From assembly GCA_037833965.1 (NCBI GenBank), contig AP031354.1, positions 9,588,001-9,652,000 of the forward strand: a stretch of 64,000 nt of DNA. The letters run 5' to 3'. Source of the stretch: Marchantia polymorpha subsp. ruderalis. Its lineage: Eukaryota; Streptophyta; Marchantiopsida; Marchantiales; Marchantiaceae. Every line of letters starts with the position of its first letter. The stretch's first letter is position 1. The position numbers and the translations under genes are program-made. The notes beneath the pieces were generated by a model. The model was not told where the DNA came from and searched no databases. It was given only the letters and a program-made list of their open reading frames with translations. Shown here piece by piece: positions 846-59,124 of the stretch.

Positions 846-1134
846 GTCTACCGTGTCATCTCCAGCTCGAGTGAATGGAACTGAGGGTTTATCTTATGTA
901 ACAACTCTGTTATACTCCTCACCTATATATCCTCACCTCACCTATACACTTTATTGATCTTCGTCATGACCATGTACGAGGCAGAAGCTTCGAGTGGTGT
1001 ACGAATCTCTACCACCGTGAATGTAACCTACTCACTTCGACCCGATTAGACGCCGAGTGCATGCCAGTTTGCGCATGAGGCGTAAATGATATCTGATTCC
1101 AGGCTGAAAGCGAAGAGAACTCCCCAAAGTATTA

Positions 1135-3490
1135 TCAGCTATCGATAATCTTGCGCTTTCCTTTAGCCACAATTTTACGAGTGGCCTCCAGTGACTCTTT
1201 AGACCAGGGCTCTTCCAGGTCCTTCTCACGGCAAGACCACATAAGGTACTTCCTAAGTGAGGACATGACAATTTGCTTTCCCATTGCCTTAATATCATCT
1301 CCGGGCAAGCTCCCATAAACACGTTCATAATCTAGGTCCAGCCGTTCCATGATCTGGAACATTCGCAGAACAGTTCCAGGATTGGCCGGAATAAAGTTTC
1401 TATAGGATTTCATGACACTAACAGACATGCGGTCAGCTCCAACCTGCAACGAGACCAGCAAGTATTGCAACCGACGGGAACATTAATACTCTGCTCGATC
1501 TGACTTTTTGAAACTTGACCACAATCAGCCGAGGATGGTAAGTTAAGTTGAGACATGGATTTGTTCTGGACCTACCTTCAGGGTATTGCTTGACAGGATG
1601 AAACCACCATACCCTTTCCTGTGTAGGATGCAGCTTCCGTCGTAATGACCGCCCAGATTGATCACGCTTATGTCATCCCATAATTCATAAGTTTCGCCCC
1701 TCCAAAATATTATGTGCGAGTCTATGTAGCCTAAGGGCAAGGTCATATATGCGCTGTCGCTATAATTCCAAACAGGTAAAAACTGCACATATTAGGATAA
1801 GATGCATCGAATGCTACAGGACGCTAGAACCTGAAATTGAACCGCTAAAACATTTATAAAGCCGGGAAACTTTTGAAAAGAATATATTTTCCAGTGTGAA
1901 TAAATCATTGGGAAGTAAAGGCAAACTTCAATGTGAAGAAGGCCCCCATGATAAATCACAACTCGTACAGGATTCTGGATGATTCTGAATCTGTCATCCA
2001 CCTTTTCTACTGTGTGACTACTCTCTATTCGAATGATTCTCCGACCGAGTGATTCGGGAACTAATTTACTTTAAATGGTGATGCTCAGAGCCCATAGGAA
2101 ATTTTTTTTTTAAAAAATCTATTCTATTTTTCTATTACATCCGTTTTCACGTTAGACATTAATTGCTTCCTTCACCTCAAAAGAAAGTGCAATATCAAAA
2201 TTATACAACGAGACAAGGTCCAGAGACCAGAAACTGCATACACAGCAACTCAGTACCTTGAATGAATGTAGACTGGACAGTTGTTGAATGCAGAGCTCCA
2301 AATAGTAAACGTGGCCATGTGTTCAGGATTCGAGATTACAATCGCTTTTACGCCTCCGATTTTGTTGATATAATTCACCGTGTCCATGTCCACGGGACAT
2401 ATGCAGTCCCACAACACGTTTCCACCTGCGCAATTCATGAGTCAAACAAGTGCCTACGAGTGAATTGAAAATCCACCACGAGGCTGCAGTCAAGATCCCT
2501 CTAGAAACCTGGTCTGGACTATCTACAGAACCGAAAGACTCCATTAACAACTAATTGTCGATTGTCGATTGATCGATTGGAAGGACCTGGAAGGAGGTGC
2601 ATACTCTTTGATTTAATTAGAAACGACCGCTGGCCTAGAAAGATAGTCGGCGATGTTTGTATTTCTAAAAGATTGGGCTCCAGGAAGTTCCACCGATTCA
2701 CAGGGTTCAGATTCTCCAGCACGTCTTGATGCGAGATCCACAGCTGGTCGCCTCTGGAAGCAGCTCCAAATGCATCAAACAACGAAATCATGTCAGTTTG
2801 TTGGACCTGCGGAGCCCATCTTCTCAATCTACGGGGAAAAGCTCGTGAGTGCATGCAACCGACTGCTTCACAGCGTGGTCGGCAACACCCGTCGAGCATG
2901 AGCAGCATGAGCGGGAATTGTCATCAGTCTTGCAAGCAGACATGAAGGTAGCTAGACATGAGGACTAAATATCATGGCTGTAGAAGAGAGAATCGGGTGC
3001 TTGTGCACGCAGTGAAGAGAGCTTACTTCCGGAAGGCGTTTCGAGTGACATCGTAACAGATGCAGCAGAGAGAGTCGTGTCGATTTGCAGTCTGTTGAAC
3101 ACCGCAGGTGGAGCATATCGTGGCTTTCGAGAGCAGGAGATCCAGCAACTTCTTGAGCTCGTCTCGCTGCTCGTGCTGAGTTCTGGGTTTCGAGCTCGAA
3201 GGTCTGTCTTCGGCGAGGCAAGGCGGCTCAAAGACATCCACAGCGCTCGGTTCGATCATGGTGGGTTCAAATTGCTCAATTGCTGGGAACTCCTCGGCTG
3301 CGGGAATCTCAAATCTGCTCAGGATACTGTCTACCAGCACAGCATCGGCCGCTTCGGCGGACGCAGCAGTCGCTGCTGCCAGAAACGCATCGCTGTTCAG
3401 AAACACATTGGACATGAAAACGTCGAGCAGAGGAGGCTCTCGGATGTCGCGCGATTTGCTTTCACGATGATCTTCCTCACTCGCCATCAT
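1135..3490 (-). CDS. Zinc-ribbon + metallo-beta-lactamase-fold protein gene, left palindrome copy
   Basis: Gene inferred from exons on the minus strand: exon 1 3490-3027, exon 2 2753-2605, exon 3 2425-2257, an unresolved linking exon near 2000-1950, exon 5 about 1700-1576, exon 6 1443-1135. Junctions 1-2, 2-3 and 5-6 have GT/AG ends and keep frame (for example CGGAA|GTAAGC). Exon 1 encodes an acidic, Ala-rich N-terminus ending in a four-cysteine cluster (ICSTCG ... CCICYD). Exons 2-6 match plant and bacterial metallo-beta-lactamase proteins that start with such a zinc ribbon: GQRSFLIKSK, GNVLWDC, GGVKAIVISNP, FWRGETYELWDD, GGHYDG, DRMSVSVMKSYRNFIP. The metal-binding HxH region has become SNPEHMAT, so hydrolase activity is doubtful. 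The start is the ATGATG in a good context (GCGACCATGATGG), about 260 bp below a TATA box. All recognised exons are open. Confidence 0.7.
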
Positions 3491-3749
3491 GGTCGCCTTC
3501 CCTCGCTTGCCTGGCCCGCAGTCCGAAGAATCTCGACCGAAGAAGAGGCCCACGAGAAAATTCTGTTCGAAAATTCACGGTGAAAATTCTGGCGTCTCGT
3601 GCACCCGATGAAAATCTCCTGCGCGCTCGCGATCGACAGTAGCAGCTCTCGTCATAAGGCTTGCAATTCCGGGCTATCGATCGGAGAGCGGTGCGCGGCT
3701 CCCACACGTCGGCCTGAAATCATGCCGAGGCGATGGCGAGTCGGTCTTT

Positions 3750-3758
3750 CTTTTTATA
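3750..3758 (-). promoter_or_regulatory. TATA box of left-arm gene
   Basis: Minus-strand TATAAAAAG preceded by GGGGCC, about 260 bp upstream of the chosen ATG at 3490. The same motif at almost the same distance lies in the other arm (6490-6498), which supports a core promoter. Confidence 0.55.
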
Positions 3759-4088
3759 GGCCCCTCGAACGAAGGATTTGCGAGTCTCGGCCATGAAGCT
3801 CTCACGGTCGGCGGCGGGTGCTGGTTGCAATAGCACTCTCGAAGCTGATTGCACCGCACTGAGTCTCTAATCTGGCCTTCGAAACCGATTCCTCGCATCA
3901 CACGTTACTATTTCTGGCTGATTCAGGACGCTCGGCCCCTCCACTGTCCTGTCCATCTGATTCAAACGAGCCGGCTTTAAGCATTTGCTCGTTCTGTCTC
4001 TCTGCATTCGAAGACTGTCAACGGAGCTCCGAAGCACAACTGCAGTCGAATTTCGAATTCAGTACCTCGGAACCGTTTTCGTGCCGAA

Positions 4089-4286
4089 GTGCGAGCTAGC
4101 GAGCCAGCGATGAAGGTCGGACGGGAAGAAATTGCATTCGGAGAAATTGAGCTGGAGGACGAGCTCGGACGGGAAAAATTGGGAATGGGGGAAATTGAAG
4201 AGGCGGAGGAGTTAGGACGGGAAGAAATTGCATTTGGAGATATAGAGGAGGAGGAGGAGCCATTTGTGGAAAGGGAAACAAGTTAG
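4089..4286 (+). other. Short frame of imperfect acidic repeats, divergent to the left-arm gene
   Basis: A 65-codon frame made of about three imperfect copies of a unit like LGREEIAFGEIE, followed by an acidic run. The DNA is a purine-rich tandem repeat of roughly 50 bp. The mirror region in the right arm (minus strand, about 6022-5900) keeps only a shorter version (FGREEMAFRDIEEE). It lies about 600 bp upstream of the metallo-beta-lactamase gene on the other strand. I recognise no family; it may be a repeat that happens to be open rather than a gene. Confidence 0.25.
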
Positions 4287-4975
4287 TTTAAGATGGTCAC
4301 GGCAGTAACTTTGAGAATCGCGCACGAGTGGAAGGGCTGCTCGATCAGCTGCCTGATGATTCCTGGATCCCGAAATCAAATGGTGTTCTGCTGCAGTTTC
4401 ATTGCACCAGAACATTCAGATCAGCAGTTTCATTCATTCGTCTTTTGTGAGTTTGTGTGCTGACCAGGAGGAGATGGACAAGATTGATTGCGTTACCCGA
4501 TGGGCACTCCAAGGTCAAATTCGTCTCCAAGCAACGAGGTATCATCCGACAGTGTCGTACAGACGAAGATGAATGACTGAGGTCACTGTTCCCTGCTGCT
4601 GTGGAGTTTCTCAGACTGCTGCTCATGGCTAGGACACCATGTCCAGGTCTGATTATGTGAAGGGGGAGAGACATGATAATGCTTTGACACGGAAACCTCG
4701 TCCCAACCTGAACCCTAGAGAACAAATCCGTATCGGTACTGTCTTCGATAACGTCGCGCTCATGACCGCCGCGAGCTATGGTGGCGAAATTAGGATCTCC
4801 TGATGTTTTGATTTTTGTTTTCAGTAATATAATTTCGTCTTTGTTTTATGGAATTTCGTGAGTGTCTAGTTAGACTTGTTGAAGACTCTAAAGTTTTAGA
4901 GTATGAAAGCAGTACTCTTATTCTAGATGGATATGCCTCAGGCTATGACTATATGTGTATATTTACCGTGTATTG

Positions 4976-5144
4976 TGCATCCACTGAAGATAATTCTTAC
5001 AAAAATATATTATTTTGTTTGTAAGTGACATTTTATTTGTAACAAGAGATTTATCAAATTGTATGTTATCCAATACTCTGGTTAGTGCACTTTGCTTTGA
5101 GAGTACCATATTACTATCATGTATGTTAAGTATGTAATCTAAAT
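4976..5144. other. Palindrome centre (unique spacer)
   Basis: AT-rich sequence without partner in the other arm. It is bordered by a shared inverted block (TATGACTATATGTGTAT at about 4943 and its complement ending near 5175). The right side has an extra stretch of about 30 bp around 5176-5205. No reading frame of note. Confidence 0.6.
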
Positions 5145-6489
5145 ACAATACAGGGTAAATATACACATATAGTCATATGTGTATATGACTATATGAGGCA
5201 CGGGCCTGAGGCATATTGATCAATAACAAGAGAACTGTTCTCATGATCAAAAATTTTAGAGGTTTCAACAAGTCGAACATGACACTCACTCGCCACCAGA
5301 AATTACAGATGACAAAGACAAAATCATATTACACAAAACGAAAATCAAAACATCACGAGATCTGAATTCTGCCAGGATGGTCATGAGCAGGACGTAATCG
5401 AAGACAGGATCAGTAACGATTTGTTCTCTAGGGTTCAGGATGGGACGAGTTTCCCGTGTCAAAGCACTCTCATGTCTCTCCCCCTGCACATAATCAGACC
5501 TGGTGTCAGATGGAAGCCATGAGCAGGAAGGAGCATGTGGCACGTGTGATCTGAGAAACTCCACAGCAGCTGGGACCAGCGAGCTCAAACATCCATATTA
5601 GTATGTACGACACTGTAGGATGATTTTGTGAGGCGTGGAGACGAATTCGACCTTCGAGTGCCCATCGGGTTATGCAAGCAATCCTCTCAGCACACAAACT
5701 CACAGAAGACAAATGAATGAATGAAACTGCTGTTTTGAATGTTCTGCTGCAATGAAACTGCAGCATAACACGGTTGATATAAGGAGCCAACTGGTCAGCA
5801 CAAAAACTCGCAGAAGAAGAACTGCCAGGCAAGGAAACTGCAGAAGAACACAGTTGATTTAAGGAGCCAGGCAGCTGATCGAGCAGCCCTTCCACTCGGT
5901 CCAGCCGTGACCATCTTAAACCAACTTCCTTCACTTCCCATAAATGGCTTCTCCTCCTCAATATCTCGGAATGCCATTTCTTCCCGTCCGAACTCTTCTT
6001 CTTCAATTTCCCCAATTCTCAAATTTCCCCGTCCGACCTCGTCCTCCAGCTCAATTTATCCGAATGCCATTTATTCCCGTCCGAACTTCGCTCGCACGCA
6101 TTTTGGCACGACAACGGTTCGAGGTCCTGAATTCGAAATTCAACTTTGGCACGACAACGGTTCCGAGGTCCTGAATTCGAAATTCGAATGCAGTTGTGCT
6201 TCGGAGCTCCGTTGACAGTCTTCGAATGCAGAGAGACAGAACGAGCAAATGCTTAAATGCTCGAAGCCGGCTCGTTTGAATCAGATGGAATGGACAGTGG
6301 AGGGGCCGAGCGTCCGAAATCAGCCAGAAATAGGAACGTGTGATGCGAGGAATCGGTTTAGAAGGCCAGATTAAAGACTCAGTGAGGTGCAATAATCAGC
6401 TTCGAGATTGCTATTGCAAGCAGCACCCGCCGCCGACCGTGAGAGCTTCATGGCCGAGCCTCGCAAATCCTTCCTTCGTTCGAGGGGCC

Positions 6490-6498
6490 TATAAAAAG
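6490..6498 (+). promoter_or_regulatory. TATA box of right-arm gene copy
   Basis: TATAAAAAG after GGGGCC, 268 bp upstream of the ATG at 6758. It corresponds to 3750-3758 in the left arm. Confidence 0.5.
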
Positions 6499-6757
6499 AA
6501 GGACCGACTCGCCATCGCCTCGGCATGATTTCAGGCCGACGTGTGGGAGCCGCGCACCGCTCTCCGATCGATAGCCCGCAATTGCAAGCCTTATGACGAG
6601 AGCTGCTACTGTCGATCGCGAGCGCGCAGGAGATTTTCATCGGGTGCACGAGACGCCAGAATTTTCACCGTGAATTTTCGAACAGAATTTTCTCGTGGGC
6701 CTCTTCTTCGGTCGAGATTCTTCGGACTGCGGGCCAGGCAAGCGAGGGAAGGCGACC

Positions 6758-9144
6758 ATGATGGCGAGTGAGGAGGATCATCGTGAAAGCAAATCGCGCG
6801 ACATCCGAGAGCCTCCTCTGCTCGACGTTTTCATGTCCAATGTGTTTCTGAACAGCGATGCGTTTCTGGCAGCAGCGACTGCTGCTGCGGCGGACGCAGC
6901 GACTGCTGCGTCCGCTGAAGCGGCCGATGTTTGTAGACAGTATCCTGAGCAGATTTGAGATTCCCGCAGCCGAGGAGTTCCCAGCAATTGAGCAATTTGA
7001 ACCCACCATGATCGAGATCGAGCCGAGCGCTGTGGATGTCTTTGAGCCGCCTGGCCTCGCCGAAGACAGACCTTCGAGCTCGAAACCCAGAAATCAGCAC
7101 GAGCAGCGAGACGAGCTCAAGAAGTTGCTGGATCTCCTGCTCTCGAAAGCCACGATATGCTCCACCTGCGGTGTTCAACATACTGCAAATCGACACGACT
7201 CTCTCTGCTGCATCTGTTACGATGTCACTCGAAACGCCTTCCGGAAGTAAGTTCTCTTCACTGCGTGCACAAGCACCCGATTCTCTATTCTCCAGCCATG
7301 AAATTTAGTCCTCATGTCTAGCTACCTTCATGTCTGCGTGCAAGACTGATGACAATTCCCGCTCATGCTGCTCATGCTCGACGGGTGTTGCCGACCACGC
7401 TGTGAAGCAGTCGGTTGCATGCACTCACGAGCTTTTCTCTGGAGATGGAGAAGATGGGCTCCGCAGGTCCAACAAACTGACTTGATTTCGTTGTTTGGAG
7501 CTGCATCCAGAGTCGACCAGATGTGGATCTCGCATCAAGACGTGCTGGAGAATCTGAACCCTGTGCATCGGTGGGACTTCCTGGAGCCCAATCTTTTAGA
7601 AATACAAACATCTCCGACTATCTTTCTAGGCCAGCGGTCGTTTCTAATTAAATCAAAGAGTATGCATCTCCTTCCAGGTCCTTCCAATCGATCAATCGAC
7701 AATCGACAATTAATTGTCGATGGAGTCTTTAGGTTCTGTAGATAGTCCAGACCAGGTTTCTAGAGGGACCTCGACTGCAGCCTCGTGGTGGATTTTCAAT
7801 TCACTCGTAGGCACTTGTTTGAATCATGAATTGCGCAGGTGGAAATGTGTTGTGGGACTGCATATGTCCCGTGGACATGGTCACGGTGAATTATATCAAC
7901 AAAATCGGAGGCGTAAAAGCGATTGTAATCTCGAATCCTGAACACATGGCCACGTTTACTATTTGGAGCTCTGCATTCAACAACTGTCCAGTCTACATTC
8001 ATTCACGGTACTGAGTTGCTGTGTATGTAGTTTCTGGTCTCTGGACCTTGTCTCGTTGTATAATTTTGATATTGCGATTTCTTTTGAGGTGAAGGAAGCA
8101 ATTGATGTCTATCGTGAAAACGGTTGTAATAGAAAAATAGAAAATGATAGAAAAATGTAATAGATTTTTTTAATTTTTTTTTTTCTGTGGGCTCTGAGCA
8201 TCACCATTTAAAGTAAATTAGTTTCCGAATCACTCGGTCGGAGAATCATTCGAATAGAGAGTAGTCACACAGTACGAAAGGTGGATGACAGATTCAGAAT
8301 CTGTACGAGTTGTGCGTTATCCTGGGGGCCTTCTTCAGAGTGAAGTTTGCCTATACTTCCCAATGATTTATTCACACTGGAAAATATATTATTTTGAAAA
8401 GGTTTCCGGCTTTATAAATGTTTTAGCGGTTCAATTTCAGGTTCTAGCGTCCTGTAGCATTCGATGCATCTTATCCTAATATGTGCAGTTTCTACCTGTT
8501 TGGAATCATAGCGACAGCGCATATATGACCTTGCCCTTAAGCTACATAGACTCTCACATAATATTTTGGAGGGGCGAAACTTATGAATTATGGGATGACA
8601 TAAGCGTGATCAATCTGGGTGGTCATTACGACGGAAGCTGCATACTACACAGGAAAGGGTATGGTGGTTTCATCCTGTCAAGCAATACCCTGAAGGTAGG
8701 TCAAGAACAAATCCATGTCTCAACTCAACTTACCATCTTCGGATGATTGTGGTCAAGTTTCAAAGCGTCAGATCGAGCAGAGCATTAATGTTCCCGTCGG
8801 TTGCAATACTTGCTGGTCTCGTTGCAGGTTGGAGCTGACCGCATGTCTGTTAGTGTCATGAAATCCTATAGAAACTTTATTCCGGCCAATCCTGCAACTG
8901 TTCTGCGAATGTTCCAGATCATGTTACGGCTGGACCTAGATTATGAACGTGTTTATGGGAGCTTGCCGGGAGATGATATTAAGGCAATGGGAAAGCAAAT
9001 TGTCATGTCCTCACTTAGAGAGTACCTTATGTGGTCTTGCCGTGAGAAGGAACTGGAAGAGCCCTGGTCTACTTCAAAATCTGTGTAGGAGACCACTCGT
9101 AAAATTGTGGCGAAAGGAAAGCGCAAGATTATCGATAGCTGATA
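6758..9144 (+). pseudogene. Zinc-ribbon + metallo-beta-lactamase-fold gene, right palindrome copy (broken)
   Basis: Plus-strand mirror copy of the left-arm gene, with the same exon layout: exon 1 6758-7246, exon 2 7511-7659, exon 3 7839-8007, exon 5 about 8550-8695, exon 6 from 8828. Splice sites are conserved (GGAA|GTAAGT, AAAGA|GTATGC, AAG|GTAGGT, TTGCAG|GTTGG). Two lesions are visible. After GCGGCCGATG in exon 1 it has three bases where the left copy has eight, which shifts the frame and gives a stop near 6958. In exon 6 the sequence after GAGCCCTGGTCT differs and ends in TAG at 9086-9088, removing about 20 C-terminal residues. It also has an eight-residue Ala/Asp expansion in exon 1. The later exons stay open, so the damage looks recent or an alternative start is used. 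Confidence 0.7.
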
Positions 9145-9504
9145 ATACTTTTGGGAGTTCTCTTCGCTTTCCGCCTAGAATCAGATATCATTTACGCCTC
9201 ATGCGCAGACTGGCATGGACTCGGCGTCTAATCGGGTCGAAGTGAGGAGATTACATTCACGGTGGTAGAGATTCGTACACCACTCGAAGCTTCTGCCTCG
9301 TACATGGTCATGACGAAGATCAATAAAGTGTATAGGTGAGATGAGGATATATAGGTGAGGAGTATAACAGAGTTGTTACATAAGATAAACCCTCAGTTCC
9401 ATTCACAGCTAGAGATGACACGGTCGACTCTAGCTCGTCATGCACATGAAAAAAAGTCAATGTCGAGTATTGTCTATTCTCAATGCTTTTGTCGCCAACT
9501 GGTA

Positions 9505-15483: not shown

Positions 15484-16165
15484 AAGACCTTTAACAAGTG
15501 ATTCAAGAAGCGTCTTCACTCCATTGCATTTGTGTCTCGTCGGTAATCCAATCACTCTACAATTATCACATTAGGTCGCACTTTGGGATTCATGTGACGG
15601 TAATGGATTCAAGTGAAATTTCAAGTCTCCCAAATTCCACTTGCTACTCAATCTTTTATCCCAACAACTGACAACCTTATGTCACTTCTCTCCACAATAA
15701 AAGCAAGTCTCACGTTTGACTCTTGGGGATTGACTTACTACTATTTCTTCAAACTTCACCTTCAATTCTCTTGTATTGGAATCTAAAAAGACTATAACAT
15801 CCAAGCCTTGAGGCACTTTGGAGAACCTAACGTTCCAATCCTCTTGTTTAGTCATTTTCCCATCATATGGAAATCACTCAAAAGAACTCTCACAGAACGC
15901 TATTTACTTGGCAAAAACTATGAATTAGGAAATTCAAAACTTTTGCTCTCTTATCGTGATTCTGTATCACCTGAACTTTAAAATAACTCAACTTTATCTC
16001 TAGACGTAATCTTTTAGTGAAATTTTAGCTCGCATATAGGTTATCTTTCAATACACATTTGTACAAATTTTCAAAGTCTAACTTGAAAGACACCAAAAAG
16101 TAATTTACTTTGTACAAACTTTTGCGAGAACAAACATTTGGCACTCGTGAAAACTCCATCAACTT
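15484..16165 (-). mobile_element. Degenerate Ty3/gypsy copy, part 2 (upstream ORF and leader)
   Basis: Continuation of 9849-11573 after the inserted element, homologous to about 58060-58755 of the intact gypsy. It covers the upstream zinc-knuckle ORF (minus strand, pieces such as GVKTLLESLVKGL at 15555-15480 and the CFYCGE-like segment near 15700) and part of the untranslated leader. It ends near 16165, where homology switches to the methyltransferase element. No LTR follows, so the 5' end was lost. Confidence 0.8.
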
Positions 16166-17039
16166 TCACCAATTACTGCATACGAGTATCCCATTCAAGC
16201 CCGGGACCACAATCCTAAAAGCATGTGATGCGGAGAAAATCATAAACGTGGATAACATCATCCAAGTCTGTCCCACACGGTTCATCACTGCCATAGGTGA
16301 TGAGCAATCCTCAACAATTGTGAACGTCGTCCAACATCTAAAATGCTATCTACTGCAAGAGTATGGTCGCGTTGCACAAAGTCATATGCACATCGCAAGA
16401 CTTCCCTCGGCAACAAGTTTGTCCATCACAAACGTGATCGATGTGCAATTGAGCCAACTCTTACTTCATTGAGCAAAAAAGCTGGTCCAATTCACGACCA
16501 CACCTCATGTACACTTGCCACACTCGAGTGTCACATAATAATGACACATACTCTAAAATGTACGGCGGGAGACTTGTTTGATATACTTGGAGATAACGTA
16601 ACATACGTAACATCACCCAAAACATATGAGATATAGGATCTTGCAGCCTTGCTCCAAAACCAGCACGTGTGTGATCCTAGCATGGCCACCTTGCAATCAC
16701 CAGATCAATGTGACCAACTCGATCAAGGTCTGGCGCCCCCAACAATAAAATATCTAAAGGCAACGTCTTCTGGTATTCTTGGACAGCAAATCGCGGCAAC
16801 ATGGATGTATAACGCTGCATCAACTTTGTAACATGTTGTGTGAAGACTCGAAATGTAGTCTCATCCTTCTCTACATATAAGTATAGGCATATGAGAATAC
16901 CTGACTGCAACACTGCAGCCAAACTTGTGCCTATTCCACCAAATAGATCCAACACACACACTCTCTCGGGAATACTCCCATGCAATGAATGCAGTGACCA
17001 ATGGCAATAGCGCACTAGTATTACAAAAATGTTGACCAT
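16166..17039 (-). pseudogene. Retroelement C5 cytosine DNA methyltransferase (degenerate)
   Basis: The minus-strand frame 17039-16677 opens with motif I (VCVLDLFGGIGTSLAAVLQSG), continues through LYVEKDETTFRVFTQHV and reaches motif IV as DLVIARWPC. The next codon is TAG in place of the usual Gln of the PCQ motif. Beyond it the same frame reads DHTRAGFGARLQDP and MLRMLRYLQ, then PPYILEYVSLL where motif VI (ENV) is expected. Further on, after a frame change, SPMAVMNRVGQ and SASHAFR mark the C-terminal part. The nucleophile Cys of motif IV is kept, but stops, frame changes and EYV in place of ENV show a pseudogene. The expected role is to methylate cytosine in DNA, perhaps the element's own copies. 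Confidence 0.75.
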
Positions 17040-17599
17040 CCTAAGATGTTTCTATCTCCTCAGGTTCAGAAGCGTCACTCCAATCCAAGCCTTCTTCACC
17101 AACCTGTCAACCTCTAACTACAACTCATGGCAAGAACGCCAGAGTGGAATGTCTAAGGAAGATGACACTGCCGCTGCAAAACTCACAACCTATTTCACTT
17201 CCTCATAGACTGGGATATCGTCGGCCATCATGTTGCCCTCCAGGAAGTCGTCGAGTCACACAAGCTTTCCGCTAAATCCGGCAACAGATGCCAACACCGT
17301 AGAAGAAGATCCAAGCGATCTAGCTCCAGAAATGAATCTCATAGGTAGGACGCTCATATGTCTATCCCTTGACTGCCAATCAATGCATTAGGATGTTGTT
17401 TGAATTCAATAATCTGTCTGAAAACCCATCGGATACAAGACTGCTCCTTCAACAAGCACATCATACGATTCTGTTGACGTAACCACCGCGCAAACTTCAA
17501 GCTATGAGCTATCACACTCGTCATCATGCCTCAACTGCACTTATACGCTTTCCTTGGTCATGAAGTATGATCTATCACTTGCATTGCCAAATGATGTAC

Positions 17600-17960
17600 G
17601 GATCTTGAATGAACAAGGCTCCAACTTGGATCTATGAACTTCCAAACTAATGCAGGTTGTCTTGCCCAACATCATGAACTGTGCATCAAAGTCAAGCAAA
17701 ACTCTGGCTGGGACATACACATGTCAGGTAAAACTCATCAAACAAAACAAACCACTCCGGTTGTCCACCATATACACATCAAGAACAATACTCTCACAAT
17801 CAATGGTTGACCAGGCTGGTAATAACTCCATCCTTGCTGCTTTCGTCTGCCAAGTCGCCTCATTCCTTATTGTTGAGGAGCAACCCTCAACAATACCCTC
17901 ACATATCTTGGCATTTGTAGTAGTGACATTTTCACGTTCACACAACATGGCTGCTACACG
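17600..17960 (-). pseudogene. Retroelement aspartic protease remnant
   Basis: On the minus strand, 17719-17660 encodes VYVPARVLLDFDAQFMMLGK. This aligns with the active-site loop LLD(S/T)GA of retroviral-type proteases; here the S/T-G positions are F-D, so the site is dead. It lies between gag and the methyltransferase, as expected for gag-pol order. Confidence 0.5.
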
Positions 17961-18359
17961 AGAAATACACGAGCCATATCAATCTTGGAGATCATTAGCT
18001 CCGTCACTGAAAACAATGAGGATCTCATCATCAAAGAACCCATCGGCGTCACTGCACTAGATGATGTCTCTGTGCCCGCAACATGTGATGTAGATGTCTC
18101 AATTCTCACTACATGATCACTAGGTGGTGTAGAAATCATGGATGAAGTCATGCCCACCTCTGACAACAAGAATGATTGGGAAAGTTTAGCTTGACTTCCA
18201 CCCTCATCCCTATGAGGGTCCCACTCCATGGTCGTACCATGTGGCTCTAAAGCACAAGTAGCGCCTCTCGTCACTGCAACCAACGCCTCAACCTGGGCTA
18301 CACTTGCCAAATAGGAGAAATCCTTTTCTTCATAAGAAGTGGAAGCTTTTGCTCCAGAA

Positions 18360-19160
18360 CTACCCATTGCAGCAAGCCTCTACTCCAACTGCTCAATCTG
18401 AACAATCATAGCGGTCTCTGCGGTATGATTAGCATCCATTATGGCCCGTCCGGTGGCACTTGCACCAGCACCTCTGCCACCACCTCTACCCCCAAATCTC
18501 AACTATGGATGAAGGTTAAAACATCGCTCTGGAGGATGATCCGCCTGACCACAATGGCCACACACAACCAGTGTCAGCTAAGGTATAACATATGAACCTC
18601 GTTCACTTGAGGACAATTCTTCCTCATATGACTACCTCCACATGTCCAACATGTTGGCTGCTGCTGTTGACCAGAAAATGAGGGCAATGGTGTCCGTGCA
18701 CTTGTCTCTCTGTGACTTGACGGATGTCGTGTCGAAACTCCACAACTCACACTACTACCACAACTAGTGGGACGAGACTGTGCGCGGATCTACTAGACAC
18801 AAGAAGTAGTGGTTGTGTTCTTACTAAACGAAGACGTCACCACCCTCTCCTCCATTATATTAAGCTCAATCTTCTCAGACAAAGCAAATACATGGACCAA
18901 TGTGGGTCACACATCGTTTATGAGGGTGACATCACATACACTCCTCCGCAAATCTCTGTCCAGAATCTGGTACCAATACTAGACAGCCTAGGCCTCAATC
19001 ACACCATGAGTAATTGAGATCAAATGGCGCATACGACTGTATGCTTCTTGAAGACTCACACAAGTCTTCTATTCAAACTCTTGAAGACTACTCAACTTCT
19101 CAATCTTCACCCCCTTGTAGTTCTTGCTCGATCTCTTGAAGAACTCTGCAATTGGGCTAA
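18360..19160 (-). pseudogene. Retroelement gag with zinc knuckles (degenerate)
   Basis: Minus-strand pieces include an N-terminal gag core (AEFFKRSSKNYKGVKIEKLS, then YSRMRHLISITHGVIEA and LSEKIELNIMEERVV) and two CCHC zinc knuckles (CWTCGGSHMRKNC near 18650 and CGHCGQADHPPERCF near 18545), followed by a Ser/Thr-rich frame 18367-17954. Upstream, 19440-19190 is a Pro/Val/Thr low-complexity run made of ACTAGTACC-like repeats. Stops separate the pieces. Gag packages the element's RNA. Confidence 0.6.
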
Positions 19161-20470
19161 AGGTAGACACGCCACTAGCAACTCCAGCTAAGCTGCCAAC
19201 GGCGGTGTTACTAATACCACTGCTAGTGTCTCCATTAGCCGCACCACCGATACGTTCGCTAGTACCGCTCTTGGTACATCCACTAGTTGCTCCGTTAGGA
19301 CCGCTCCTAGTACCCTCACCATCAGCTTTACCGGTACTCCCAATAGTACCGCTCTTGTATCTTCACTGGTACCTCCACTAGTGCTGCTACTCGCAGCTTC
19401 ACTAGTAACAACACCACTTACACCTCAACTAGTACCAACACCATCTTGGATAATGTACATGTAGTTTGAAGACCAATGACGCCTTCATGCGTCAATCTCC
19501 ACAACATAGTCCCTTCCAAACTCATGGTGGTCATCCATAAGAGGCTACTCTAAATTCCAAAACAATCTCTTCCAGACAAAGAAGTGTGTAAACAACGTAG
19601 AAATTACATATCACATCACGTGTCAAACTCCTCGATGAAGTCCTCCAGCTCAATGGTGCTCATCGCACCAGAGTACAGTCATGAGCCCTTTATGACCCTG
19701 TACATTCCGTCCAAGTCCCAAACCAACGGGGTTGTGACAAAGGACGGTATCAACTTCAAAGATTCAAGATCTGCAACATCTTGATCTTCCACACCAATTG
19801 CTAAGATTAGTAAAGGTGTCCGATCACTCAATCCACTTCGTGTAAATCCACCCTGGTCCTTGATATGACCATCAAACTCCTTCGTGATGATCAAATTTTC
19901 AACTAGCACGACTACCAAATCTCCATCAAGTAGCCAAATCCGCACCTGACATTGTGCCAGTACTAAGCAACTCTAACCCTACTAGCTATGAGGTATGGGC
20001 AACCTTACATGCCATCACCGCAAGAAGATTCTCACAATCTACTGGTCAACACTCCAGTCTCAACGTGAGAGAAACAAAGATAGGCCGGGCGGTGATCAAG
20101 TCCATCCGCATTATCGACGGCACACTGGAGTAAAACTACTCCAGAAACCATCGTCACTCTTACATAGACGAACACTAGGAAACATGACTGGAGAGTATCC
20201 AAACACAAGCAAATAGCTAGCAATGACTGTCCAGTCTAAAAGAAACATAGTAGAAAACAATACAACACACACGAGACATCGCATTGCATCGCGATCTCGA
20301 TTCGATCTCCATCGCCCCTTATCACATTCCGCCTGCAACTTAACCCGTACAAGTGGTAGCTCGTCTGCTAACCTTTTCCTTGCTCCCATGTCTCCAGCAG
20401 TAGGTCGGTCACAAATCTATCAACAATTGGATCTTGGAAAAACATCTCCACCTCGAGCAGTCAATATACT

Positions 20471-23400
20471 CTACTATTCAAAATGTAAAAAGTAATGAGT
20501 ATAGAAGTTATGCTCATCCTAGGAGGCTATCAGGCTATGATTTCATCAAGAAATCATCAATAGAGATTTGAAGTATGCTAACAGGTTAATCACTGGAAAT
20601 TATAATATTTCCTTGATCACGTCATATACAAAAATAGTAATTGTAGTACAGTACTTACAAGACCTTCAAACCTTCTTTCAAACTATAGTGAGTGAAACAA
20701 GATTCAAACTCTTAGTCTCTACAGATTAGGCTCTCAGAATTCTGAACCCTAAATCTATTTTCTTTGTTATCTCTTTGTTATCTTTTTTTTTTCTCACTTG
20801 TTTTTTCAAGAGAGAAAATTATTTTTATACAAGTTGAAAGAGTACATCAGTTGAACAAAATTATATTGCTCTCAAGGCCTTTCTTCCTATAAAGTACTAA
20901 GAAAGAAATTTTACTCGTCCTATTCACAATCTAGAGCTACTGACACAGTAGCTCTACACAGTTGATTCTTCCAGCAAAGTTGATTGCAACTTTGTTAGCA
21001 AAGTCAAGTGAAATATACACCACTTAACTCCCATCAGGAAACTCATGTTAGGTAGCTAACTTGTCTGAGTACCAAACCCCTGTACTCTACCTCTTTCAGA
21101 ATTCTAACAAGTGAAGAAGCGAAAAAGGCCCCTATGGTTTTAGGTAGGTATCTCCAACTCATGGCTCTCTTTATATTAGAAGGTTTAGAAACAAGTCTAT
21201 GGAGCGTACAGACTGGACATAGGAGATTGAAGCGTTTAAACCACCTTTGCAAAGAGTTAGTACAGAGAGGATCCGGCAGCAGAATTTATTACAATTGCCT
21301 ATAGTTAAACGCAATGGATGTATCTCGAGCTCATCTGAGCTGCCACTTCCTTGATGAGCTATTCGAAGTTACCTCTAAATGTAGTCTACATCCTATAAAC
21401 ATCTACTATGCAACATAATAGATAATTTATGCTCCTCACAATCATAAGGTACTCCCAAATTTGACAAGTTTGGTTTATAACTTCATGTGGATTTTGCTCT
21501 AGTATACACTCCATATCTGAAGTCAAGTATTTATGTTTCAACTTGATAGTACAGTCTGCTGTACAATGCTCAGAACAAGCTTAGCAATTGGGTGTAATCT
21601 GCTCAATTCCTGATCATTCCCAGGTAAATAATGATGTACTACATTGGTGATGAACAATTTACTGTGCTCAATATGCCTCAAGTCTTGTCTTGACGTTGTC
21701 CAGATCTATCATCAACCTCTAAATACCTCAATACATGACTTGTATGTGATAGCTGGTGCTAATCACAATCTGAGATTCGTAACAAATTAAGTTTAACTCA
21801 AACCTGATGTTGCAGCTTCCCACGATTATCCAATTATCCTATTCAGCTGTCCAGAGAGTTTTTAAAATCGATTCATTATAGTGTGACTATCCGCTCCTTG
21901 ATACCATTGCCTTCTCTTCCTTGATCAGAACTAATTCTCAAAGTCCCTTTCAATCTGCTCAAACCCACCTTCTTCAAATTGAACAACAGACCTCAAAGCT
22001 GAGGAGGCCTGACTTTTACTCTCCTCCAAGGCCTGAAGCTATGCAAGTTCTACGCACCAGCTCTGTGTATAATTCACAATCAAATTGGCTCTCTCTAGCT
22101 CTCACGATCCTCGTCCGTCTTCTTCGTGATCCAAAACTCCACTTCCAATGCTCCACAAAATCTCCCCTTTCGGATGGATTCTTCACTTTTCAGAAGAAGG
22201 AAATAATCCTCTCATATGTGCACAGCATTAGAGTGATATCATGTCAATGGCAAATATGGCAAATATGGTCGGCCGATTCATTCATCAATCAAAATGCAGT
22301 TTGTTTATCACTACGAAAGTCTTTGGGAACGACCCAAGATGTGCATCATGGACATCTGATTGGAGAGGCATGTGAGACCTCAACATCCAATTCTCTCGCA
22401 ACTGCAAGAGAATTTACACTGGACCTTCTCACTACTAGCCTTCTTCGCTCACGAGTGAAAGTATATGTACTCAGTCATCAGTTTGAAAGTCAACCGACTC
22501 ACATACCTCTTGGCGGCAGTCTCCTCCTGATTTCCGCCCCTTTATAAACAAAATTCCGAAACTATGAGCAATTGCACCTCATTCTCATGTTCAGCGCCGC
22601 TTCTCTCCGCGAAATAGAAAACAAATTGAAACAAATCACGACCACTATTCTTTACTCAAACTCGCAGTTTCAATCAAACTCATTTGCATTAGAATTTAAA
22701 TCCGGATAGCATCTCTTCATAAAGCTAATTGTATTCGGCCTTCACAATGATGGATTCTTTGATCTCATGATCTTTTTCTTCGGTGACACATCCTCAGGCA
22801 CTATTCTAGTTTGTTCAGCTGATGAAACACTCTCCGTCACCCACTTTCTAGACGCTAGAAAAGACTACACTACTACGACACGCACAATTAACTTTACACT
22901 CCTAAAGTGAACTCAAAATGTCTTTCTTCACGAATGGCTTGTCTCAATTTGAGCACTGTCTAATGGTCGAGAGATGTTAGGACCCAAGAAGAACTCAAAA
23001 ACTTCTGAATTCGTCCATCCAAGCAAATTATTACTCAATCATTAAAGCATATTTTGTAACACTAGAAATTCAAAACCTGCTGCAGACCTCAAATTTTTGA
23101 AATCACAAAGCATGATTAGATCATTTTGAGATTCTTATATTCTAGCAAACAAAGTGTACAGAATGCAATTTCTCAAAGTATTCAATCTGTCCACTACACC
23201 GCATAGCAGTCCAATTCCTCCTGCAAATTGAACAAACTGAACTAGTTCAAGCTTCGTACTATTTCTTCCCTCTTTACTTGGAAAATTACCGACCAAAATT
23301 TGACAATTCTTTCAATATTCCTATTATTGATGGCCCTAGATTGTCACCCATGCATCAATATCCTCAATCAATTAGCTGTTGAGATCAACGCTCCTAATCT

Positions 23401-23754
23401 ATCAATATACTTCAAATGTCTAGTCGAGACTATAAGAATCCACAAACAAATTCAAAATAACTAATTCCAAGATTAGAGGCCAAGTCAAAATTTTGGAATA
23501 AAATGAGCAACAATTCTTTTTTCCGTTTTACACTGAGTTCTTCAAATGAATAAAACATGATTATCCCAAAGACAAACACAACAATTCACCTGCAGTCAAG
23601 CCCAACCCACTCAACAGAGAATCTAGGTCGACGCTTGAGGGCATTCACTAATCCCAACGCTACAGACTCGACTTGAAAAAATGAACGTTCTTTGAGTCTC
23701 GTCGACTCTATACCTTCTGCGAACGATAATCCTAGGCCGACGACTAAATATAGC
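20471..23754. other. Unassigned, AT-rich; no gene recognised
   Basis: No conserved protein is visible. The 208-codon plus-strand frame at 21921-22547 has no recognisable motif and lies in probable LTR-type sequence: 21893-21907 read on the minus strand resembles an initiator-tRNA primer-binding site (TGGTATCA..GAGC with two extra bases), and a minus-strand TATA-like TTTATAAAGG lies at about 22543-22552. The region may be the remains of a copia-like LTR in minus orientation. Boundaries and partner LTR were not found. Confidence 0.35.
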
Positions 23755-25620
23755 AAACGCAAAAAGACATGATACCTTTATCAAAAGTGCATTGGTGAGG
23801 AAATACATCAATGGATGTTATTTCCTTACTATTGGTTTGTTATGTGGCCGGTGCATTGTTGTTGTGCCAAACTCCATCATGTTGTCAAGAGTTAGAACAA
23901 TTTTGCTGAAAATGAGATTCGTTACAGTTAAAACAAGAAACTCTAAAGTTTACTTGAGGTGTATTTCTTCTTGGAGCATAATTTCCATATTCCATAGAAA
24001 CTTTTCCTACATTTTGATTACTTTTCTCCCACAACTGTACTACATTGATCTTGAGGTCAGCTAGAGTCTTTGTGATAGTTTAAACTCATGTTGCAAATCT
24101 ACGTTGGAAGTAATCATTGTGGAGTAACTAGCAAGATTTGGAATAGTGGGTCTTACTACAACATAGGAAGCTACTTCTCTAGCCACTAAGCTAGACTCAA
24201 TATCTTCTAAGTTTTCTTTCATTCTAAGAGCAATTCAAATGGCTTGAGTCTTAGAAGAGGGCTTCTCATATCTAAGCTTACTTTGAATCTCTGGCTTCAA
24301 ACCTCCAGCAAAATTCTTCGTGAGCATTGCTCTTATCTCCATTATTGTGAAATCCGCTTCGTTATTACTTTTTCTCAACACCACATGAAATCTTGACTCC
24401 AAATTCTCGGTACTCTCAACATAAGACCTTGTCTTCTCGTTGTCTCTTGTTTCAAGAAGGTGACATCACTTATCAACTTTTTGTAAATCAGGTACTCGAT
24501 CAACGTTTTCCAGGTTTACTCCTCCAAGTGCTCTCTCTTGTACTCTTTATACCACTTGAGAACTAAATACTCCCAAAAAAATTGGCAAAAACATAGCCCA
24601 CTCATACTTCTTACTCTCATTATTTCCTATGCAAGCCCTCTTACAGTTTCTAATAAACAAAAGTTTCAAAAGTTTCTACATCCTCATTCTTCTTCCCATA
24701 AAACACCAAAAGTTTTTCCATTTTCAACTAGTTTTTATTTCCATTGGAAATTTATTTGAAACTTCATAATACAACACAAATAACATTTAACTCTATCCTT
24801 CTGTAATTCATCAAAACAAACACAAAAGGATTTGGCTTGTTTCGTATAGCCATAGCTCTCTCCTCCCCCAAACACACAATGAGTCTTACCCTCATCATCA
24901 TCTTTTTCATCATCCGAATGATGATCTCCATCTTTAGTTGGAGCTTGATCCAATAGAGATCAACTTCTCCGCCTTCGCACTATATTTGCCATCAAGACCT
25001 TTCGCAAGTGATTCGAGGAGTGTCTTCACTCCGCTTCATTCGTGTTATGCCGGTAGTTCAATCACTTCACATTTTTCACATAAGGTTGTGCTTTGAGATT
25101 CATGTGACGATGATGGTCCTAAATGAAATTTCAAATATCCCAAGTTTTTCCGACTCCTCAATCTCATATCCTTGTTCCGTAAGGAGCAACTTCTCACTTT
25201 ATGTCCCTATTCTTCACAATAAAGCAAGTTTTGTGTTTCACTTTTGAATATTGATTTACTACTCTCTCTTCAAATTTCACTTTGAATTTTCTTGCGTTTG
25301 AGTTAGGAGACTATAATATCCAACCTTTGAGGTATTTTGGATTAGCTAACATTCTAACTCCCTTGTTCACTCATTTTTTAAGAGGTGTAAACACTCAAAA
25401 GGTATCTCCCAAAAAAACGCTCTCTACATGATGAAAATCATAATTAAGGTATTTTGGATTAGCTAACATTCTAACTCCCTTGTTCACTCATTTTTTAAGA
25501 GGTGTAAACACTCAAAAGGTATCTCCCAAAAAAACGCTCTCTACATGATGAAAATCATAATTAAGTAAATTCAAAACTTTTGCAGCGTTCAGAACTCAAC
25601 ATTCAAAAATGATGAAGTTC
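23755..25620 (-). mobile_element. Degenerate Ty3/gypsy copy (gag and upstream ORF region)
   Basis: Homologous to about 56805-58540 of the intact gypsy, same orientation. It keeps the gag zinc-knuckle area near 23870-23960, the gag core near 24200-24560 and the region upstream of gag, including an open minus-strand frame 24953-24735 with the acidic run DGDHHSDDEKDDDEGKTHC. The upstream ORF is decayed (25000-25320). Numerous stops and indels are present. Confidence 0.82.
25331..25564. repeat. Perfect 117-bp tandem duplication
   Basis: 25331-25447 and 25448-25564 are the same 117-bp sequence, beginning GGTATTTTGGATTAGC, in direct tandem within the degenerate gypsy leader. I see no difference between the copies, so the duplication is much younger than the surrounding decay. 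Confidence 0.9.
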
Positions 25621-35846: not shown

Positions 35847-35918
35847 TATCAGAGCGAGGTTTCGATCCTCGGACCTGTGGGTTATGGGCCCACCACGCTT
35901 CCGCTGCGCCACTCTGAT
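35847..35918 (-). tRNA. Initiator tRNA-Met (CAT), copy 1
   Basis: The minus-strand 72-nt sequence starts ATCAGAGTGGCGCAGCGGAA and ends GCTCTGATA. It forms a seven-pair acceptor stem (ATCAGAG/CTCTGAT), a D-loop, an anticodon arm GGGCCCATAACCC with anticodon CAT, and a T arm CGAGGATCGAAACCTCG. The A-U first pair and the ATCGAAA T-loop are features of eukaryotic initiator tRNA. A TTTT run about 20 bp downstream (35821-35824 as AAAA) can stop Pol III. It is identical to the copy at 38714-38785. Confidence 0.93.
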
Positions 35919-38713: not shown

Positions 38714-38785
38714 TATCAGAGCGAGGTTTCGATCCTCGGACCTGTGGGTTATGGGCCCACCACGCTTCCGCTGCGCCACTCTGAT
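38714..38785 (-). tRNA. Initiator tRNA-Met (CAT), copy 2
   Basis: Same 72-nt sequence, base for base, as 35847-35918, on the same strand. Short flanks are also shared (TCTCTGG before the 3' end and TTGATG beyond the 5' end), so this is a dispersed duplication of a small segment. A TTTT run for Pol III termination lies about 30 bp downstream (38683-38686 as AAAA). Confidence 0.92.
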
Positions 38786-52206: not shown

Positions 52207-52977
52207 TGCAACCTCCGGGCTGACTCTCACTCAGGTTTACCTCAGATGGCTTTTCGGTAGCTCATCATGATTCTAGAAGACTAGGATTCCGCATCATACT
52301 CATAAGCTAAACACCCTCTCGCACAATCTCTCAAGGTATCACTCCAATTCATACACTCATCGACACTCCAAGATATTGAAAATTCGTCACTCTTTCATAT
52401 ATGAAACAAGTCTCTCCATATGAACTCTCCAAACTTGCTTGAGAGGCTCTTCCCTACCTCTCTATATATACTACTTGAGAATTTACCATAGTAACAAATG
52501 GTAATTTCTATCTAACTTACTTTTACGAAGATAAACCATAGTAAGGTTGACTAGTTATCAATATGTGGCAACATGCCATTGGCTCCCTAAACCTTCTAGA
52601 TGTTTACTAATCCCTAGATTGAGGTGGCGACATGCCATTTGTGCCTTTCCAACTTCTAGAACTTCCACTTTCCACTAAGTCAACATTAGACTTAGTCTCA
52701 CCAATGGAATACTCCTTACTTTAGTCAAACCAATCAAAACCAAACATGAAGTTCAAAAGTCTTTTCTCTTGGAATCTAGACTTTTGTACAAGACAAAATA
52801 GAAGTGCTCACTCAACTCTTCTAGAACTTCTCTAGTTATTCCGCCAAGTATAGACATTATAGCTAAACTAGCTAGACTTAGTCATAACTAGCTAGATTTA
52901 GTCATAACTATCCTAACCATGATTAACTCATTGGCTAATTCTAGTTTTATTTCACACATGCAATATCTGGTCTTACA
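52207..52977 (-). repeat. 3' LTR of the gypsy element (771 bp)
   Basis: Begins TGCAACC and ends CTTACA on the plus strand. It differs from the other LTR (59125-59895) at six positions by direct comparison. In element orientation (minus strand) this is the downstream LTR. It carries a TATA-like TATATATAG (about 52463-52471). Confidence 0.95.
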
Positions 52978-52990
52978 TTTACCCCCGGAC
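52978..52990 (-). other. Polypurine tract of the gypsy element
   Basis: Minus-strand GGTCCGGGGGTAAA directly precedes the 3' LTR (TGTAAG...). This is where plus-strand priming would occur. It is short and interrupted by CC. Confidence 0.5.
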
Positions 52991-53000
52991 CAAGACTTCA

Positions 53001-56000: not shown

Positions 56001-56474
56001 CCAATATTCGTCGGTTGGTCTATCTGAGTCGGTAAGAGAACTTCCTCCTCCTGTCAAAGGAACCTTCACCCGATGGTTCTTTGGGCCTATCCTCAGATAG
56101 CCCTTGTGCCATTGATCAGTAGTTCTCACCGCCCTCAACCAAGAACGTCCCAACAGCAAATCATAACTAGCTTCCTTGAGTACTTGGAAGGAAAGTAAGG
56201 TTTGCACACCTCTCACACTTATCACAACTTTGTCAACCACACCAAGTGGTTTTACCTTCTGTTTGTTGGCCATACCAACAATTATACTTGAAGGTCTGGA
56301 AAGTCGCATCCCCAACTTCATCAACAATCTTTCAGACATTGCATTTACAGCAGAACCACCATCTACTAGCACGTCTGAAACATCATGCCCATCGATCCTC
56401 ACTTTGATCTTTGAGGCATGTGTACATACCTCTGAGGCAGCAGCATCCACCACACCAACTCCCACATTAGTCAT
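53001..56474 (-). pseudogene. Gypsy pol: protease, RT, RNase H, integrase (two in-frame stops)
   Basis: One reading frame from the ATG at 56474 to 53001, broken only by TAA at 54690-54692 (in RNase H, after DASNIAIGCTLS) and TAA at 53418-53420 (after ESKLPI). Protease active-site loop VDGGSAVN is near residue 40. Reverse transcriptase: VCVDYKKLNAVTKKDYYPLP, FGLCNAPATFQRFMN and catalytic FIDD (usually YIDD). RNase H: LLYTDASN, then EREALAVIFSLKKFRHYL. Integrase: zinc-binding H-H-C-C (HEGAVCGGH ... CKSCDVCQ) and catalytic D-D-E in WGIDFVGP, VSDRGGEF and NGLAER. It ends soon after a GPF-type segment (KYFGPFIVEKV), without a chromodomain. The frame is -1 relative to gag, overlapping it by ATGA and about 45 nt. 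Confidence 0.92.
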
Positions 56475-57772: not shown

Positions 57773-58003
57773 CTAATTTTATTTTTTTTATATAATCTTT
57801 TTTTTTTTTTTCTATTGGAAATGTATATGGGACTCCCTAGTACAATACAAACAACACTAACTCCATCCTTGAGTAATTCATCAAAGGAAACACAAAAGGA
57901 ATTGGTTGCTCCGAGATAGCCAAAGCTCTCTCCTCCCCTAGGCATACAATGAGTCTTACCCTCATCATCATCTTCTCCATCATCCGAATGATGATCTCCA
58001 TCT

Positions 58004-58447
58004 TCAGTTCGAGCTTGAACCCGCTGAGGTCACTTTCTCCGTTTCAGCACTTAGCTTGCCGTCAAACCCTTCCACAAGTGATTCTAGAAGCGCCTTCACT
58101 CCGCTGCATTCGTGTCCCGCCGGTAGTCCAATCACTCCACAATTGTCACAGAAGGTTGCACTTTGGGATTCATGTGGCGATGATGGTCCCAAGTGAAGTT
58201 TCAAATCTCCCAAGGTTCTCTTGCTCCTCAATCTTCTATCCTTGTTCCGCAATGAACAATTGACAACCTTATGTCCCTCCTCTCCACAATAAAAGCAAGT
58301 CTCACGCTTCACTCTTGGGGATTGACTAACTACTCTTTCTTCAAACTCCACCTTGAATTCTCTTGTATTGGAGTCTAAAGACACTATAACATACAAGCCT
58401 TGAGGTACTTTGGATAACCTAACCTTCCAGCCCTCTTGATCACTCAT
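58004..58447 (-). CDS. Extra zinc-knuckle ORF upstream of gypsy gag
   Basis: Intact 147-codon frame between the leader and gag, starting MSDQEGWKVRLSKVPQGLYV. It carries a CCHC knuckle (CFYCGEEGHKVVNC, about residues 50-63), a basic stretch (RNKDRRLRSKR) and a second Cys/His cluster (FCDNCGVIGLPAGHEC). It ends GSSSN. The same region with the same terminal stop is recognisable in the two degenerate copies (15480-15860; 24940-25320). Directly after it another frame continues (about 58020-57721) with the acidic run DGDHHSDDGEDDDEGKTHC, also conserved in the copy at 24953-24735, so the two may be joined by frameshifting or splicing. Standard gypsy elements lack such an ORF. A nucleic-acid-binding accessory role is an inference. 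Confidence 0.65.
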   Translation of the reverse strand: MSDQEGWKVRLSKVPQGLYVIVSLDSNTREFKVEFEERVVSQSPRVKRETCFYCGEEGHKVVNCSLRNKDRRLRSKRTLGDLKLHLGPSSPHESQSATFCDNCGVIGLPAGHECSGVKALLESLVEGFDGKLSAETEKVTSAGSSSN

Positions 58448-59104: not shown

Positions 59105-59121
59105 CCCGGCAACGGAACCAA
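59105..59121 (-). other. Primer-binding site of the gypsy element
   Basis: A few bases inside the 5' LTR, the minus strand reads TTTTTGGTTCCGTTGCCGGGA. TGG..CCGTTGCCGGG resembles the complement of the 3' end of tRNA-Asp (usual plant site TGGCGCCGTTGCCGGGG) with two or three differences. The primer identity is therefore uncertain. Confidence 0.5.
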
Positions 59122-59124
59122 AAA

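Follow-up and report, generated by a model that had tools for sequence, protein, structure and literature searches.

Why would a retroelement encode an enzyme of a type that normally silences such elements? The question is raised by a locus of the liverwort Marchantia polymorpha subsp. ruderalis, and becomes testable there since M. polymorpha is a transformable laboratory plant. The stretch analysed comprises 64,000 nt of contig AP031354.1 (9,588,001–9,652,000; hereafter the window, to which the positions below refer). On its minus strand, positions 20317–16170 are a decayed frame of gag, protease and C5 methyltransferase (MT). The copy is dead, as a preliminary description of the window made from its letters alone had stated: stops and frameshifts interrupt the frame. 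We consider it probable, jointly with the mechanism proposed below, that this relic represents two thirds, counted from the 5' end, of a Ty3/gypsy-type retroelement whose family persists as long open copies in the M. polymorpha genome.

The components that the preliminary description had recognised (two CCHC knuckles, a protease site, MT motif I, a motif IV Pro-Cys, an EYV and a C-terminal block, that of motif VIII) are all present and collinear on the minus strand. Of the extent that it gave, 16166–19160, the lower limit stands, the relic being cut at about 16166–16170, but the upper limit does not: leader and gag run from 20317, and further upstream, at 23587–23756, lies what remains of A1, the 5' terminal repeat. 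This remnant aligns locally to repeat A of the copy L019 with a score of 134.5, against a maximum of 34.0 in 200 shuffles (blastn match 23714–23594). The old segment between A1 and the leader (20318–23586) was placed by comparison with eight copies. Open copies hold captured host sequence here; the relic's own segment has, besides itself, only diverged matches in the genome (66–88%), and its host origin is a candidate assignment.

The leader upstream of gag (19898–20317) belongs to a blastn match, 20317–19361, at 76.8% to copy L012. Gag follows in several frames at 17963–19897, with a Ser/Thr/Gly-rich stretch (tblastn, residues 1–633 of the first open reading frame, ORF1, of L012; frames -1, -3, -2, -1). 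Its two zinc knuckles were read in translation: CWTCGGSHMRKNCP at 18610–18651, the same in ORF1 of L009, and CGHCGQADHPPERC at 18521–18562, at the same place in ORF1 of L009 and L017. The protease active-site remnant at 17679–17699 reads LLDFDAQ where open copies have LLDSGAQ. The MT domain, of DNMT3 type, lies at 16170–17051 with stops and two frameshifts (tblastn of ORF1 up to residue 1219; frames -3, -2, -1). It retains, by reading and by alignment columns, DLFGGIGT at 16926–16949, which we take to be motif I, as we take the following to be motifs IV, VI and VIII: the Pro-Cys at 16680–16685, with the catalytic Cys kept and a stop as the next codon; EYV at 16545–16553, a Tyr where 57 of 57 aligned element MTs have the Asn of ENV; and, in another frame after a frameshift, the block AHRSR..WTN at 16417–16446 (read, and found by tblastn). 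The domain is truncated before motif IX; since the relic is cut, motifs IX–X are missing. Compared frame by frame with ORF1 of two subfamilies, the relic covers residues 1–1219 of the 1358 of L012 at 72–77% DNA identity, and its distance from either subfamily is about 0.34 substitutions per site. The second frame (ORF2) of the MT element had no match within the window except to a neighbouring gypsy element at 31%, i.e. the relic's reverse transcriptase (RT) was not found there.

Taken alone, the relic MT scores below the cut-off of Pfam PF00145 (E 0.14) and is sub-threshold for TIGR00675 of NCBIfam (E 0.03); against PDB an unrelated receptor came top (E 0.25), followed by DNMT3A (2qrv, E 0.62). 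We therefore turn to its relatives. One reading frame of the relic (residues 480–880, stops as X), used as a protein query, found 27 proteins at E ≤ 0.001. The best is P0003 (Mp_4g09160 of M. polymorpha; E 3.9e-142, 61% identity over the whole 401 residues), and others come from Calypogeia fissa, Sphagnum, and jgi and ena records. Scanned against 23 database relatives, PF00145 exceeds its cut-off in 18 (9/9, 5/6 and 4/8 in three sets). The protease part is matched by Asp_protease_2 of Pfam, above cut-off in P0036 and just below in P0032. A profile of eight open relatives reached DNMT3A structures at E 1.2e-18, ahead of bacterial HaeIII and HhaI and of DRM2. From this match and the catalytic columns, the motifs of the open relatives follow the order I, IV, VI, VIII, IX–X, and are not rearranged as in DRM. 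The profile search proposed in the preliminary description is thus positive for the relatives, which match C5 methyltransferases, though the relic alone stays sub-threshold. By these criteria of sequence the MT domain of the element is a DNMT3-type C5 methyltransferase, with a predicted activity on DNA.

The genome (241,466,482 bases, 9 contigs) was searched with PF00145, which scored 123 places of 290 candidates, host genes included; many lie in open frames of 1351–1365 aa. The host genes, one DNMT3 (L001) and two DRM (L002, L041), named from their motif order, are separate from the elements. Twelve copies were fetched, a sample biased by being picked for long frames, and fall into two subfamilies (10 and 2 copies). 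In all twelve ORF1 has 1351–1365 codons from stop to stop and aligns over all 1278 residues of P0003 at 81–100%. P0003 is identical to ORF1 of L017 (1278/1278), which bears out the assignment of the window to a bryophyte-like genome. ORF1, as printed in full for L009 and L017, contains gag with two CCHC knuckles, protease and MT. The presence of gag and MT in one open frame in other copies means that the MT is not unrelated host sequence. The live relatives that had been predicted therefore exist as open frames: ORF1, MT included, is open in 12/12, and ORF2 is fully open (1042–1045 codons) in 8/12, being broken or shortened in L009, L011, L016 and L018. In L012 and L017, the two scanned with Pfam, ORF2 encodes RT, RNaseH (RH), integrase (H2C2 and rve, with DDE) and a C-terminal PHD finger.

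The expected place of the MT, between protease and RT, is thus right as to order, but the MT does not share one open frame with RT: a single in-frame TAG, then CAA, follows ORF1 in all twelve fetched copies. A search with the junction pattern of subfamily A, the stop left free and up to 3 mismatches allowed, found 157 places genome-wide (reversed-pattern control, 0). Among the best 100 of these 157, the stop position reads TAG in 98, CAG in 1 and TAT in 1. Eleven of the twelve copies fit the context UAG-CAR-YYA (e.g. TAG-CAA-CCA), described as essential for readthrough in tobacco mosaic virus, with 32% by reporter (PMC2754532). This context suggests that TAG may be read through into ORF2, as we infer for the MT element.

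The description of the element as a retroelement holds, with split repeats at its ends instead of long terminal repeats (LTRs). A repeat A of about 293 bp stands at the 5' end, while at the 3' end B1 is followed by a spacer of one or two bases (GC or C), then by A2 and B2, B being 113–119 bp; the element begins with TGTC and ends with GACA. Both ends were located in eight copies (L010, L013, L015, L017, L019, L009, L012, L020); L011, L014, L016 and L018 were left out of these counts, L014 having a long direct repeat. The arrangement A1 ... B1-A2-B2 is found in 6/8, L020 with an extra partial A and B. The other two, L009 and L012 (right ends L022 and L024), have A on the left, a single B on the right and no terminal repeat, yet a 4-bp target duplication. 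Such a duplication flanks all eight. An ordinary LTR structure was looked for in the copies of the MT element and not found: the 5' end has A only, and A then B occur only at the 3' end. The termini are thus DIRS-like split repeats, and the 4-bp duplications are those of integrase-type insertion. In five copies the A1/A2 pair, compared over about 293 bases, shows 0, 1, 1, 2 and 6 substitutions (the fourth with two gap positions besides), and the B1/B2 pair shows none; these five insertions are therefore recent. L015 is inserted inside another copy of the family. In our reading A-body-B would be the form that integrates, and B1-A2 would be a junction of circle type that serves replication.

Behind the 5' repeat the open copies carry host sequence. 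In the same eight copies the first 0.9–2.9 kb after A1 and the motif CTCGAAGAACT differs from that of the other seven, except for L012 and L020, which have 917 bp in common at 99.8%; the next 0.4–1.2 kb, before gag, is common to the eight. The segments of seven copies (L015 in part, L009, L012, L017, L013, L010 and L019, with 5' ends at loci L031, L021, L023, L029, L034, L038 and L035 respectively) were searched in the genome. All seven match other loci, and six of them at least two unlinked ones. For five (L015, L009, L012, L017, L013) a single locus supplies four to six collinear matching blocks (96–100%), which are joined in the element and spaced in the locus. Where donor DNA was read, 5/5 joins of L013 are exact GT-AG introns on the element strand, and 3/4 joins of L015, whose captured piece is CDC48/VCP-like, are exact GT-AG introns on the opposite strand. 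The absence of the donor introns at exact GT-AG joins indicates that spliced RNA was captured, in either orientation. For L010 and L019 several loci were matched, and the joins are not clearly those of splicing. Some of the matches are sibling copies of the element, i.e. C5:1845340 for L010 and C5:3610346 for L019, both at 98% over the whole or nearly the whole query. The captured segments form a natural record of the host mRNAs taken up by single copies.

We then consider whether the MT is maintained. The ratio of non-synonymous to synonymous substitution rates (dN/dS) between subfamilies, over 20 non-independent pairs, is 0.188 for gag, 0.145 for protease and 0.138 for MT, and that of RT-RH is 0.082 (7 pairs). 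The corresponding values within subfamily A (45 pairs) are 0.248 (gag), 0.087 (protease) and 0.269 (MT). The MT is under purifying selection. The 57 element MTs chosen for alignment, beside which the relic was aligned, all conserve the catalytic Cys of motif IV, the Glu of motif VI and, in motif VIII, the second Arg. The MT thus appears functional as judged from sequence.

The mechanism that we propose starts at the TAG. Most ribosomes would stop there, yielding Gag-PR-MT (PR, protease), and a minority would read through to give Gag-PR-MT-Pol. The MT would thus be made at the Gag level and packed into the particle where the cDNA is made, and there it would most likely methylate CG in the new cDNA before integration. 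Methylated incoming DNA may resemble host DNA or be shielded from deamination or degradation, a benefit that de Mendoza et al. proposed for other such elements (PMC5890265). The choice of integration site may depend on a histone mark recognised by the PHD finger, and the spliced host mRNAs behind the 5' repeat would be accounted for by template switching inside the particle. The whole of this explanation, i.e. the relic, its family, a Gag-level MT, methylation of the element's own cDNA and capture, has in our judgement a good chance of being right.

Several points weigh against it. Expression, readthrough, particle entry and methylation are here predictions from sequence. L017 has CAA CAA after the TAG, a misfit to CAR-YYA, and the conservation of TAG in the pattern search is that of one recently amplified subfamily. 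Pfam's Retrotrans_gag stays below threshold in P0003, P0005 and L012 and has no match in L017, so that the label "gag" rests on position and knuckles. The dN/dS of the MT is above that of RT-RH, and within subfamily A it exceeds those of both gag and protease. Finally the domain of KnitGypsy-Dnmt3, the MT-bearing Gypsy element of the alga Klebsormidium nitens, gave no methylation in yeast, a test that its authors judged inconclusive (PMC5890265).

The MT might instead act on the host genome and not on cDNA, by methylating host genes or rival transposons, or by slowing the spread of its own element to the benefit of the host. The many copies (the 157 junctions, and the 123 places scored with PF00145 among 290 candidates, a figure that includes host genes) would suit such a role, an MT made separately from Pol would be free to act away from the particle, and PMC5890265 discusses roles of this kind as possible. 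The position of the MT within a Gag-protease precursor, which would be expected to enter particles, argues against them, and we regard action on the host genome as unlikely.

The origin of the MT bears on a further alternative. With the MT part of P0003 as query 71 proteins were found, and with that of P0054 141 (best 120 of the 141 listed). Home-made profiles were used to classify 196 sequences (191 database proteins, four ORFs and one gypsy pol), most of which show one of two domain orders. The first is gag-PR-MT, followed by RT where the record continues (bryophytes and a further group); the second is RT-RH-MT-INT-PHD (INT, integrase; Haematococcus, Chromochloris and other records), in full in 87. 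A PHD finger after the integrase is found in both orders, in 125 of the 140 proteins with MT and integrase. The search for relatives among viral contigs gave none. The RT does not separate MT elements from others: identity to L012 is 38.8% for a non-MT gypsy RT and 36.6–50% for database elements outside Marchantia (20 of 105 rows). As a separate observation, Glu replaces the Pro of motif IV, next to a conserved Cys, in 14/35 aligned MTs of the RT-RH-MT-INT-PHD order (P0046 and others) and in 1/22 of the gag-PR-MT order.

In the MT tree the 57 element MTs and the relic lie on one side (SH-aLRT, an approximate likelihood-ratio support, 99), and the host DNMT3, the two DRM and fish DNMT3 on the other. 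The relic groups with both Marchantia subfamilies (SH-aLRT 99), and the two domain orders form two groups (support 89 each), P0079, a long branch, being on the wrong side. The bryophyte elements could nevertheless have taken their MT afresh from a bryophyte host DNMT3, independently of the algal elements. The approximately unbiased (AU) test does not reject trees that place the host DNMT3 of Marchantia next to the bryophyte-type MTs (p 0.102) or next to the type I MTs (p 0.113). The joint between hosts and elements drew a long-branch warning from the tree program, and for Klebsormidium the published interpretation is an independent capture (PMC5890265). But the unconstrained tree separates all element MTs from those of hosts, its log-likelihood is better by 38 and 34 than those of the constrained trees, and elements of both orders share the PHD finger after the integrase. 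A fresh capture thus seems quite improbable. A single capture of the MT is favoured by the tree but not proven, given the long-branch warning and the alternatives that pass the AU test.

It has also to be asked whether the MT is kept for a role that does not involve DNA, e.g. RNA binding, RNA methylation or a structural part in the precursor. Its dN/dS (0.138 between and 0.269 within subfamilies) is nearer to that of gag (0.188 and 0.248) than to that of RT-RH (0.082 between), and the Klebsormidium enzyme is described in PMC5890265 without a shown activity. A purely structural role would not need the catalytic Cys and Glu that all 57 MTs keep, and we give little credence to these functions. 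Chance similarity, or host sequence lying beside an independent gag relic, would fit the scores of the single relic below curated cut-offs, but is practically inconceivable given one open frame with the same order in 12/12 copies and a relative at E 3.9e-142.

Returning to cDNA methylation by a Gag-level MT, a wider picture can be put forward tentatively, and we think it possible though rather doubtful. A split-repeat Ty3/gypsy lineage with its own DNMT3-type enzyme would extend across green algae and bryophytes; the liverwort MT would sit in a Gag-level precursor before a leaky stop, every particle containing the enzyme and delivering pre-methylated DNA; and particles would routinely take up spliced host mRNAs and join several of them, between 5' repeat and leader, into new copies, a continuing generator of host cDNA mosaics. 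The material at hand is a bryophyte genome with many copies of the MT element, several of which have long open frames and nearly identical repeats.

The surroundings of the relic account for its ends. The truncated MT is joined on the minus strand to a relic of another Ty3/gypsy element (15488–16165), which is not part of the MT element and is 80.8% identical to 58068–58756, the 5' part of a copy at 52207–59895. A further relic of that other element lies at 23775–25427, also on the minus strand (76.9% to 56808–58500), and its homology breaks off at 23775, where A1 of the MT element should begin. From these junctions we infer that the MT element inserted into the gypsy relic on its upstream side, and that a later deletion removed its 3' part and joined it to the other relic. 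The copy at 52207–59895 has LTRs of 771 bp (52207–52977 and 59125–59895) that are 99.2% identical; its gag and pol frames are long, and an additional 5' frame carries a CCHC knuckle. Beside the gypsy relic a 122-bp unit occurs twice in tandem at 99% identity (25327–25565). Elsewhere the window holds a large inverted repeat at 846–9428 (arms 846–4405 and 5829–9428, 91% identical) and two tRNA-Met genes (35847–35918 and 38714–38785) within an 87-bp direct repeat.

With this Ty3/gypsy LTR copy the MT element shares the order RT-RH-INT and a DDE integrase, their pol being about 31% identical, and with Ty3/gypsy LTR retrotransposons a short target-site duplication (4 bp, 8/8). They differ in that the copy has LTRs where the MT element has A1 ... 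B1-A2-B2 or no terminal repeat, and ORF1 of the latter matches the copy solely over the zinc-knuckle stretch. DIRS elements, whose termini are similar, have a tyrosine recombinase and no target duplication, whereas the MT element has an rve integrase, no recombinase in the ORFs of L012 and L017, and 4-bp duplications.

Retroelements with their own cytosine methyltransferase have been published for dinoflagellates and a charophyte alga (PMC5890265), and streptophytes and dinoflagellates are the groups named once more in a survey of 2025 (PMC12344493). SymbioDIRS-Dnmt3 and SymbioLINE-Dnmt of Symbiodinium are likewise retroelements with a DNMT; they are a DIRS element with tyrosine recombinase and a LINE, published as independent of the Klebsormidium capture (PMC5890265). 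In the database elements of Haematococcus (P0164), Chromochloris (P0171) and the same type (P0046, P0054) the MT is homologous and a PHD finger follows the integrase, but the MT lies between RNaseH and integrase, unlike that of Marchantia. The closest parallel, compared by its published description, is KnitGypsy-Dnmt3, with Gypsy domains (RT-RH-DDE integrase), a DNMT3-type MT under purifying selection and DIRS-like terminal repeats (PMC5890265). No K. nitens protein is named among the relatives listed from the searches with the relic, the P0003 MT and the P0054 MT. A Gypsy element with DNMT3 and split repeats being already published there, the kind is known. Its MT is described within the Pol polyprotein ORF of an alga; that of the liverwort element ends ORF1 upstream of the TAG, in 12/12. 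Maize Bs1, according to a review (PMC13317346), is a retroelement with fragments of three host genes, like the captures seen here; the Marchantia segments differ between fetched copies except L012 and L020, and some are common to further sibling copies. In the open-licence literature we found no report of DNMT elements in bryophytes. What is new is thus the bryophyte host, the MT placed before a leaky-type TAG, the copy number and the captured host cDNA.

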